DNA from: Verrucomicrobiia bacterium
Lineage (GTDB): Bacteria > Verrucomicrobiota > Verrucomicrobiia > Limisphaerales > JADLHS01
Direction of reading: 5' to 3'
Length of the DNA: 64,000 nt
Assembly: GCA_011525685.1 (NCBI GenBank)
Contig: WYBW01000094.1
Coordinates: forward strand, 1-64,000
A program made the translations under genes and the position numbers. Below are positions 19,557-22,365 of the stretch, piece by piece (the first letter of the stretch is position 1; each line of letters opens with the position of its first letter). The notes below the pieces were generated by a model. It made no database searches and had not been told where the DNA came from. It saw only the letters and a list, made by a program, of their open reading frames with translations.

Positions 19557-21248
19557 TCAGCCCCGGTTCAGCGCGCTCAACACCGCCCGCACCGAGGCCA
19601 GTTCGATGTTGGTGTCCACGCCCGCACCCCAGCGGGTTCGACCGTCCTTGTGTTTGATTTGGATGTAGGCGATGGCGCTGGCTTCTTCGCCGGCGCTCAG
19701 GGCGTGTTCACTGTAACTGCTGATTTCGAAGCGCGGCACGCCAGCCTGGCTGAAGCCATGCACCAGCGCGGCCAGCGGGCCGTTGCCTTCCCCGGCAAGC
19801 TCCACCGGCTTGCCGTCCCGCAGCAGGCGGGCGCGGCAGCGGACGACCCCGTTGCGGCTTTCCGTTTCAAATCCCAGCAACTGCCACGGCGCGGTGCGTT
19901 CGATGTATTCGCGCCAGAACATCGCCTTCAATTCCGCGCCACTCACCTCGCGGCCCAGGCGGTCCACTTCGTTGTTGGCGATCGGGCCGAACTCGCGCTG
20001 GAGTTCCTTGGGCAGTTCGATGCCGAATTCACTTTCCAGCAGGTAGGCGACGCCGCCCTTGCCGGACTGGGCGTTCACGCGAATGACCTCGCGGTATTGA
20101 CGGCCAATGTCCGCGGGATCGAGCGTCAGATAGGGCACGTCCCAATACGCGACTTCATTCGAGGTTCGAGGTTCGAGGTTCGAGGTGTGATGTTTTTCCT
20201 TCCATTCATTCAAGCCCTTGCGGATGGCGTCCTGATGCGAGCCGCTGAAGGCGGTGAACACCAGTTCACCCGCGTAAGGCTGGCGCGGCGGCACGCTCAT
20301 GCCGGTGCAACGCTCGTAAACCTGGCGAATGGCATTGAGGTTCGAGAAATCCAGCTTGGGATCAATGCCATGCATGTAGAGATTGAGCGCCACGGTGACG
20401 AGGTCGAGGTTGCCGGTGCGTTCGCCGTTGCCGAAGAGCGTGCCTTCCACCCGGTCGGCGCCGGCCAGCAATCCCAGTTCCGTGGCCGCCGTGCCGGTGT
20501 CGCGGTCGTTGTGAGTGTGCAGGCTGATGATGAGCGACTCGCGATTCCTGATGTGGCGGCAGATCCACTCGATCTGGTCCGCGTAAACGTTGGGCATGGC
20601 GACTTCGACCGTGTCGGGCAGGTTCAGGATCATCTTCCGTTCCGGCGTGGGCTGCCAGACGTCCATGACCGCCTCGGAGATTTCTTTGGCGAACTCCACC
20701 TCCGTGGCGCTGAAACTCTCCGGCGAATACTGCAGCATGACCTCCGTGCCTTGGAGCTGGGGCAGGCGGTCCTTGATCATCCGCGCGCCGCGCACGGCCA
20801 CCTGAACGATCTGCGCCTTGGACATGCCAAACACGACGCGGCGCTGCGCGGGCGAGGTCGAGTTGTAGAGATGGATGATGGCTTTCCTCGCCCCGACCAA
20901 TGACTCGAACGTGCGCTCGATCAGGTCCTCGCGCGCCTGCACCAGCACCTGCAGCCACACGTCCTCGGGCGCGCGGCGCTCCTCGATGAGCCGGCGGTTG
21001 AACGTGAACTCGGTGTTGTTCGCCGAAGGGAAGCCGACTTCGATTTCCTTGAAGCCGCACTTCACCAGGGCGTGAAACAGTTCGAGCTTCTGGCTGATGT
21101 TCATCGGGATGGCCAGCGCCTGGTTGCCATCGCGCAGGTCCACACTGCACCAGCGGGGGGCGCGGGTGAGGGTGCGGTTGGGCCATTGGCGGTCCGGTAA
21201 ATGGACCGGCGGGAACGGGCGGTATTTTTTCGACGGTTCTTTGAGCAT
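19557..21248 (-). CDS. leuA: 2-isopropylmalate synthase
   Basis: Enzyme of 563 residues of the longer, yeast-type LeuA class. It makes 2-isopropylmalate from 2-oxoisovalerate and acetyl-CoA, the committed step to leucine. Catalytic and metal-binding stretches are seen: VDLRDGNQAL, VGFPSANNTEF, SLHTHNDRDTGTAATEL, EGTLFGNGERTGN, then the C-terminal leucine-sensing domain. A heptanucleotide repeat (20156-20190) encodes the segment HHTSNLEPRTSNE at a family-variable loop before WDVPYL. The ATG at 21248 gives the family N-terminus LKEPSKKYRPF. Expression is probably governed by the attenuator just upstream. Confidence 0.94.
   Translation of the reverse strand: MLKEPSKKYRPFPPVHLPDRQWPNRTLTRAPRWCSVDLRDGNQALAIPMNISQKLELFHALVKCGFKEIEVGFPSANNTEFTFNRRLIEERRAPEDVWLQVLVQAREDLIERTFESLVGARKAIIHLYNSTSPAQRRVVFGMSKAQIVQVAVRGARMIKDRLPQLQGTEVMLQYSPESFSATEVEFAKEISEAVMDVWQPTPERKMILNLPDTVEVAMPNVYADQIEWICRHIRNRESLIISLHTHNDRDTGTAATELGLLAGADRVEGTLFGNGERTGNLDLVTVALNLYMHGIDPKLDFSNLNAIRQVYERCTGMSVPPRQPYAGELVFTAFSGSHQDAIRKGLNEWKEKHHTSNLEPRTSNEVAYWDVPYLTLDPADIGRQYREVIRVNAQSGKGGVAYLLESEFGIELPKELQREFGPIANNEVDRLGREVSGAELKAMFWREYIERTAPWQLLGFETESRNGVVRCRARLLRDGKPVELAGEGNGPLAALVHGFSQAGVPRFEISSYSEHALSAGEEASAIAYIQIKHKDGRTRWGAGVDTNIELASVRAVLSALNRG
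20156..20190. repeat. Heptanucleotide tandem repeat inside leuA
   Basis: On the coding (minus) strand CCTCGAA is repeated about four times and encodes TSNLEPRTSNE in frame. Because seven is not a multiple of three, the repeat reads differently in each unit. The insert lies in a loop between conserved LeuA blocks. Similar degenerate repeats occur at 57159-57180 and 47321-47355 outside genes. Confidence 0.8.
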
Positions 21249-21297
21249 GACGGTTTCAGTTTGTGGGTTTGCGCCGGTGGCGGCGAGGCAAAACAAA

Positions 21298-21325
21298 AAC
21301 CCCACCGCCGTTCGGCAGTGGGGTT
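21298..21325 (-). terminator. Intrinsic terminator (attenuator) in the leuA leader
   Basis: On the minus strand AACCCCACTGCC pairs with GGCGGTGGGGTT: 12 pairs including one G-U, around a GAAC loop. TTTTTGTTTT follows directly. It ends about 40 bases before the leuA ATG and follows a leucine-rich leader peptide, so it should end transcription unless antitermination occurs. Confidence 0.85.
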
Positions 21326-21347
21326 TCGGAAAACTCTCGTGAGCCTA

Positions 21348-21416
21348 TCAGAACCCGACTGCCGCGCCGCCCAGCAGCAGCGCGTTCGTAAGCAGCAGGT
21401 TCAAGTTGCCAATCAC
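21348..21416 (-). CDS. leuL: Predicted leucine-rich leader peptide of leuA
   Basis: A 22-codon frame with GTG start (21416) and TGA stop reads MIGNLNLLLTNALLLGG-AAVGF. It has seven leucines, including runs of three (ctg-ctg-ctt and ctg-ctg-ctg). The stop lies about 22 bases before the terminator stem. This is the arrangement of leu-operon attenuation: ribosome stalling at leucine codons when leucyl-tRNA is scarce would favour an antiterminator. The start is inferred: the frame is open upstream, but the predicted promoter places the RNA 5' end at or near this GTG, so translation may be leaderless. Confidence 0.72.
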   Translation of the reverse strand: MIGNLNLLLTNALLLGGAAVGF

Positions 21417-21422
21417 GCGCGC

Positions 21423-21451
21423 ACCATAACCACCGTCCACCCGATGGTCAA
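21423..21451 (-). promoter_or_regulatory. Predicted leuA promoter
   Basis: Minus strand: TTGACC (21451-21446), a 17-base spacer, then TATGGT (21428-21423). Transcription would start around 21416, exactly at the leader-peptide GTG. It lies in the gap divergent to the pseudopilin gene. Confidence 0.6.
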
Positions 21452-21504
21452 CGTGATTTTTCTCAAAGCTTGAAGGTGATTCACCCTGGCGGTAAACTTG
21501 GGCC

Positions 21505-22365
21505 ATGCACGAACTTCCCAATTCTGCCCCGCCTGACGGTCAAACCTGCAGGGCTCGTCCCTCGCTGGGACAGGTGGCAGACAGCAGCCCTGGCCGCGGC
21601 CGTCGTGGCTTCACGCTCATCGAACTGCTGGTGGTCATTTCGATCATCGCCATTCTGGCGAGCATGTTGTTGCCCGCGTTGAGCAAGTCCAAGGAGCGCG
21701 CCAAGGGCATCAATTGCATCAACAACCTGCGCCAGATGTCGTTGAGTTACACGCTTTACGCCGATGACAACAAGGACGATGTGGTGACGCTTTACCTGTT
21801 TCAAACCGCGCCGCCGGGTGCGTTTTACCCCGGCTCGGTCACTTGGTGGGTGGACTTGTTGCGGCCCTACCTGCAGGGGACGAACATCATCACCTGCCCA
21901 AGCGTGTGGGGCAACCAACCGTTCGGCGTGGGCGGTCCGGGCGGACTGGGTGTCGCCTTGAGCCATCCGGAACTCTCCGCGTGGTCCACGCAGTGGACGC
22001 CCAGACTGGCCACTCTCAAGAACCCCTCGCGCCGGGTGCCGTTCCTGGATTCCGGCTTGATCGGCAATCCCCGCGAGCGCGATCCCGATGCGTGGGTGGA
22101 GGTGCGCAATCAGCAGGCGCTTTATTGGCGCGTGCCCACCAACACGGGTTATTACGACGATGATCCGCAACGCCCCGTGGGCCGTCACCTGCGGCGATGC
22201 AATGGCGGCTTCGCCGACGGCCACGCCGAGGCGCTCAAGGTCAGCATGATCGGGCTGCAATTTTATCCCGGCCGAAGTTCCACCGGCCAGTCGGCCACCG
22301 GCATCCGGTGGTTGGGCGGTAATGGACTCTTCGATGATCGCTGGATGTGGTCGTGGGGACCCTGA
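21505..22365 (+). CDS. Prepilin-type pseudopilin with H-x9-DG motif
   Basis: Protein of 286 residues. A basic leader precedes the prepilin peptidase site [19 protein letters not shown] near residues 35-52, followed by the hydrophobic pilin helix. The body is like the DUF1559-type pseudopilins common in Planctomycetes and Verrucomicrobia. The C-terminal H-x9-DG motif appears as [15 protein letters not shown]. Such proteins are numerous in these phyla and are thought to use a type II secretion-like apparatus; no secretion genes are adjacent. It is divergent from leuA. Confidence 0.88.

Follow-up and report, generated by a model that had tools for sequence, protein, structure and literature searches.

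The leuA gene of the Verrucomicrobiia bacterium studied here is very likely controlled by a ribosome-mediated transcription attenuator, the leader of which is probably leaderless. The element lies on the minus strand of the analyzed window (64,000 nucleotides of contig WYBW01000094.1), where the whole leader switch spans positions 21451–21288 and is followed by the ATG codon of leuA at 21248. Its anatomy, conservation, gene association, base-pairing potential, and promoter-to-start spacing were obtained in the present analysis. The promoter, 22-codon Leu-rich frame, 12-pair hairpin, U-run, and leuA named in the original prediction are all in place, and the leu attenuator order that it proposed was borne out: an antiterminator was found, in which the last leader codons pair with the 5′ arm of the terminator, and are also the pairing partner of the first Leu codons; the promoter is conserved, as are the Leu codons and the terminator in 49 aligned leaders from upstream of leuA; and leuA follows in every testable relative.

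Briefly, the promoter (21423–21451) consists of a −35 box TTGACC (21451–21446), a 17-nt spacer, and a −10 box TATGGT (21428–21423), with information peaks kept in 49 relatives. The transcription start predicted from the spacing in relatives is the first base of a GTG codon (21416), 7 nt past the −10 box. This GTG opens the leader frame (21348–21416; MIGNLNLLLTNALLLGGAAVGF), which comprises 22 codons, seven of them for Leu, and ends with TGA (21350–21348), as judged from the sequence and from gaps in multiples of three in the alignment of 49 leaders. The first control codons, CTG CTG CTT (Leu 7–9; 21390–21398), belong to a conserved CTGCTGCT block in the alignment of the relatives, and the second Leu block, CTG CTG CTG, is formed by codons 13–15 (21372–21380), as seen in the sequence and the alignment. 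Region 1 (GAACCTGCTGC; 21392–21402) holds the Leu control codons and pairs with region 2 in the MFE fold of the leader. Region 2 (GCGGCAGTCGGGTTC; 21351–21365) is composed of the final five codons of the leader and constitutes the 5′ arm of the antiterminator, as assigned by folds, pair counts, and synonymous-codon shuffles. Region 3 (AACCCCACTGCC; 21314–21325) was assigned by folds and pair counts as both the 3′ arm of the antiterminator and the 5′ arm of the terminator, and region 4 (GGCGGTGGGGTT; 21298–21309), additionally supported by a terminator scan, as the 3′ arm of the terminator. The terminator hairpin, AACCCCACTGCC-GAAC-GGCGGTGGGGTT (21325–21298), is separated from the leader stop codon by about 22 bases and has 12 pairs (14 according to the scanner) around a GAAC loop, with a ΔG of −23.0 kcal/mol (z, −5.8 against shuffles). 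It is followed by the U-rich tail of an intrinsic terminator (TTTGTTTT; 21288–21297), identified by sequence and terminator scan, and, ~40 bases further, by the ATG of leuA (19557–21248), which was classified by family scans as a 2-isopropylmalate synthase gene of the TIGR00970/NF002991 type (TIGR00970, 718.9 bits with a cut-off of 697.4; NF002991, 805.6 bits). No obvious Shine-Dalgarno sequence is seen before this ATG (21248–21287, minus strand).

From these features we infer how ribosome stalling, termination, and the response to leucine would proceed, and where the RNA 5′ end would lie. Transcription would begin at, or ~1 base from, the leader GTG, making the leader mRNA probably leaderless. 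When leucine is plentiful, the ribosome would pass the Leu codons, proceed to the stop codon, and cover region 2, so that regions 3 and 4 would pair and transcription would stop before leuA. When charged tRNA-Leu is scarce, the ribosome would stall at the first Leu codons, namely in region 1, leaving region 2 free to pair with the emerging region 3; the terminator would then not form, and leuA would be transcribed. If the leader is not translated at all, regions 1 and 2 would pair with each other and the terminator would form.

The alternative pairings were examined by folding. The RNA folded to the end of the terminator 5′ arm (without region 4) gave a long 2:3 helix, and folding of the whole leader gave a 1:2 helix (GAACCTGCTGC with region 2) together with the 3:4 terminator, which identifies the Leu codons as region 1 and the final codons Ala-Ala-Val-Gly-Phe as the antiterminator arm. 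In these models, the locus is a complete 1:2/2:3/3:4 attenuator. Such a coding role in the antiterminator would explain the conserved AAVGF C-terminus of a throw-away peptide. Across 49 relatives, 98.6% of the terminator cells and 88.5% of the antiterminator cells are paired, versus at most 62.9% and 57.3%, respectively, after shifting the partner by 1 to 3 columns. Compensatory changes occur in both the terminator and the antiterminator; for example, antiterminator columns 75/101 carry CG in 28 sequences and UA in 8. The region 2:3 pairing has a mean energy of −21.5 kcal/mol versus −15.0 kcal/mol when the same peptide is recoded synonymously, and is better than the recodings at p<0.05 in 26 of the 49 leaders. 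The 1:2 pairing is weakly positive in the same comparison (p<0.05 in 5/49 leaders), with no clear selection beyond that which follows from the Leu codons; its support is lower since CUG-rich codons pair with GCGGCAG irrespective of the remaining sequence. By the narrow definition, the mean energies are −20.8 kcal/mol for the antiterminator and −24.4 kcal/mol for the terminator. With the terminator being more stable on average, the switch can work only if the antiterminator forms before it. In eight variant leaders (L018, L026, L029, L034, L044, L047, L049, and L057), CTT CGA CTN (Leu-Arg-Leu) replaces CTG CTG CTN, where a possible pairing of CGAC with the region 2 bases GTCG would be another way to build region 1.

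Several properties of the leader frame indicate that it is translated. Leu accounts for 30.6% of the leader residues versus 9.4% in LeuA, and LL is present in 47 of the 49 leaders. All 46 gaps within the frame in the 49-leader alignment are multiples of three, and those in the spacer behind the leader stop codon are mostly 1–2 nt. Since the start and stop codons were picked in frame, the total leader length is a multiple of three by construction; what makes the gap test informative is that the distance between promoter and start codon is fixed as well. Divergence by codon position shows a slight third-position excess (0.37 vs 0.30–0.31), as expected if the frame doubles as a structured RNA. 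These properties also bear on the reading that the leader directly binds a metabolite or tRNA, as a riboswitch or T-box, rather than being sensed by a ribosome. Such a regulator would fit a structured leader located ahead of a biosynthetic gene; however, the gaps in multiples of three and the high Leu content speak for a translated frame, only 22–27 nt and the hairpin remain outside of it, and Rfam scans of the window at gathering and permissive thresholds gave no family at the gathering score and no riboswitch, nor was a T-box found when E was relaxed to 10. We therefore consider direct ligand binding very improbable, and retain a ribosome-mediated attenuator.

The position of the promoter relative to the frame points to a leaderless start. 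When the 49 leaders were aligned on the start codon, information peaks appeared at −36 to −30 and −13 to −7, and C prevailed at −1; a conserved A-rich stretch resembling an UP element was also observed upstream of the −35 box (−45 to −41). As the boxes occupy −35, −10, and UP-like positions relative to a transcription start, the start codon is expected at +1 or within 1–2 bases of it. The spacing from the −10 box to the start codon is 6–7 nt in 41 of 48 leaders (the scoring slightly favored 6) and 8–10 nt in a few; in 22 further leaders scored without a spacing preference, it is 6–7 nt in 16 and within 6–9 nt in all. The start codons were partly chosen using the −10 position, which favors this statistic in ambiguous cases. 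Leaderless translation of the leader, surmised in the original prediction from the start site of the window alone, thus gains support from both leader sets (49 and 22), and we regard it as well supported, with the RNA 5′ end predicted from promoter spacing. It could be argued instead that the attenuator is real and its leader is translated from an ordinary 5′ untranslated region, transcribed from another promoter upstream, with the visible −10 and −35 boxes being secondary. The leaderless 5′ end is indeed a prediction from sequence, and an in-frame ATG, GTG, or TTG is found within 60 nt upstream in 28 of the 49 leaders. Against this, conservation ends near −46 (between −150 and −46, the information averages 0.05 bit), the distances of the boxes from the start codon are the textbook ones, 46 of the 49 leaders, including that of the window, lack any Shine-Dalgarno core 4-mer at −20 to −4, and the promoter described above is the only promoter-like site within 21200–21600, where 0.1 sites are expected from shuffles. 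Translation from an ordinary 5′ untranslated region thus appears unlikely, and a leaderless start is preferred.

The element is widespread in the order. The leader region was matched in 31 of 38 relatives, and a pattern scan of named genomes yielded 27 loci, nearly all labeled Limisphaerales or Verrucomicrobia. A covariance model built from the alignment of 49 distinct leaders matched 272 of 320 genomes of the order Limisphaerales, and 143 of the 154 high-quality ones. In an even draw of 195 genomes from the phylum, the model recovered only the genome of the window at E 1e-6, indicating that its range does not extend to the remainder of the phylum. In a draw from the class, full-length matches outside the order precede leuA of the TIGR00973 type in a few other families, and many weak partial matches are mere terminators. 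The next gene was readable in 46 of the 49 loci and is leuA in all of them; sorting by sequence motif, together with family scans on representatives, places 37 in the TIGR00970 type and 9 in the TIGR00973 type. In one genome (G088), both types occur and each is preceded by a separate leader (L105 and L106). The occurrence of two leuA types behind the same leader (L001–L057; G088) suggests that the enzyme was replaced and the attenuator kept. Dispersed inverted repeats of the ACCACGAATGAACACGAAT and AATCTTAATCTTAATC types are found between the terminator and the leuA ATG in L004, L007, L010, L014, L015, and L022, and in many relatives such repeats stretch this gap well beyond the ~40 bases seen in the window. 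Inspection by eye of the regions upstream of trpE (plus strand) revealed no comparable leader.

The conservation also bears on another reading of the hairpin, namely that it is an intrinsic terminator serving a gene upstream, or a constitutive terminator and nothing more, with the Leu-rich frame standing in front by chance. Lone intrinsic terminators are common in bacteria, but here the terminator is conserved jointly with the Leu-rich frame and the antiterminator before leuA in most genomes of the order. Moreover, the upstream neighbor, a pseudopilin-like gene with the prokaryotic N-terminal methylation motif PF07963 (21505–22365, plus strand), is divergent and lies 88 bases from the leader start, so that there is no co-oriented gene upstream to which the promoter or the terminator could belong. 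A plain or upstream-gene terminator is already contradicted by the jointly conserved leader parts and the divergent neighbor, and we assign it a negligible probability.

Among the closest known leaders is Rfam RF00512 (Leu_leader), which likewise combines Leu codons, competing hairpins, and a terminator before leuA. The window does not match this family at E up to 10, and the best score among the relatives scanned was 34.9 bits (L014, on the right strand) versus a gathering score of 50. The original prediction knew of no described attenuator with leaderless leader translation, but such leaders have been reported for Corynebacterium glutamicum ilvBNC, Streptomyces lividans leuA and leuS, and Sinorhizobium meliloti trpL. 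In C. glutamicum ilvBNC, a branched-chain leader peptide is made without a ribosome binding site, with +1 at one nucleotide from the start codon (Morbach et al. 2000 in PMC11857589) and with terminator, antiterminator, and anti-antiterminator hairpins (PMC11857589; ilvB-II motif, PMC10272879); it differs in phylum and in gene (ilvB, with Val/Ile/Leu codons), and no sequence relation to the present element is shown, its closer functional parallel being the verrucomicrobial ilvB leaders described below. In C. diphtheriae ilvB, the transcription start site is also at the leader start (PMC5784534). The leaders of S. lividans leuA (leuL1) and leuS (leuL2) are leaderless by RNA-seq and Leu-rich, with leuL1 preceding leuA and leuL2 having a hairpin with a U-run; the leuA leader lacks a typical Rho-independent terminator, whereas the window has a leader, an antiterminator, and an intrinsic terminator (PMC8079986). 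The actinobacterial LEU element also has a frame upstream of leuA that carries a Leu codon run, but is a candidate pseudoknot in which this run and the leuA Shine-Dalgarno box make up the base stem, and not an intrinsic-terminator attenuator (PMC1262725); the actinobacterial leuA leader is without an intrinsic terminator (PMC8079986, PMC1262725). The transcript of S. meliloti trpL begins with the ATG of the leader peptide, and this system resembles that of the window in transcription attenuation and in the leaderless leader predicted here, differing in the amino acid (Trp) and in belonging to an alphaproteobacterium (PMC7298713). Leaderless leader peptides are therefore not new, and the present element works like switches known in other bacteria. 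A literature search, with most subscription journals outside its coverage, found no earlier report of such attenuators in Verrucomicrobiota. The element in the window is a genuine, well-conserved leucine attenuator absent from Rfam, with a probably leaderless leader.

Weak matches of the leu leader model led to a second group of leaders, which are rich in Val and precede ilvB (acetolactate synthase, identified by TIGR00118) in relatives (L146, L148–L150, L152–L154, and L163–L179); all 24 of the ilvB loci examined match a profile of this leader. These leaders, exemplified by the peptide MFGQIRQVIAVVVVVVGDAVGTGRG and a terminator of the AACCCACGGCTGG...CGGCTGTGGGTTTTTT type, have TTGACC-like and TANNNT boxes, the latter mostly 7–9 bases before the start codon, and are apparently leaderless; their frames were read by eye in 5 of the 24 and by automatic choice in the rest. 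No leader family of Rfam matched those scanned. In the genome of the window, a search for ilvB itself gave none above the cut-off, possibly owing to an incomplete assembly. It may be that, across the class Verrucomicrobiia, leuA (of two distant types) and ilvB are both placed under leaderless-leader attenuators, mostly with a 5′-terminal GUG for leuA and with the antiterminator arm in the last codons of the peptide, and that leaderless initiation is efficient and old in this lineage; we see the chances of this generalization as evenly balanced.

Altogether, an RNA regulator outside Rfam is described for leucine synthesis in an order whose members are largely uncultured, to which a sister family before ilvB is added. 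The presence of one leader before two types of LeuA enzyme makes it seem that the regulation was kept while the enzyme was exchanged. Leaderless translation in Verrucomicrobiota also becomes directly testable with this element, as the frame works only if ribosomes start on a 5′-terminal GUG.
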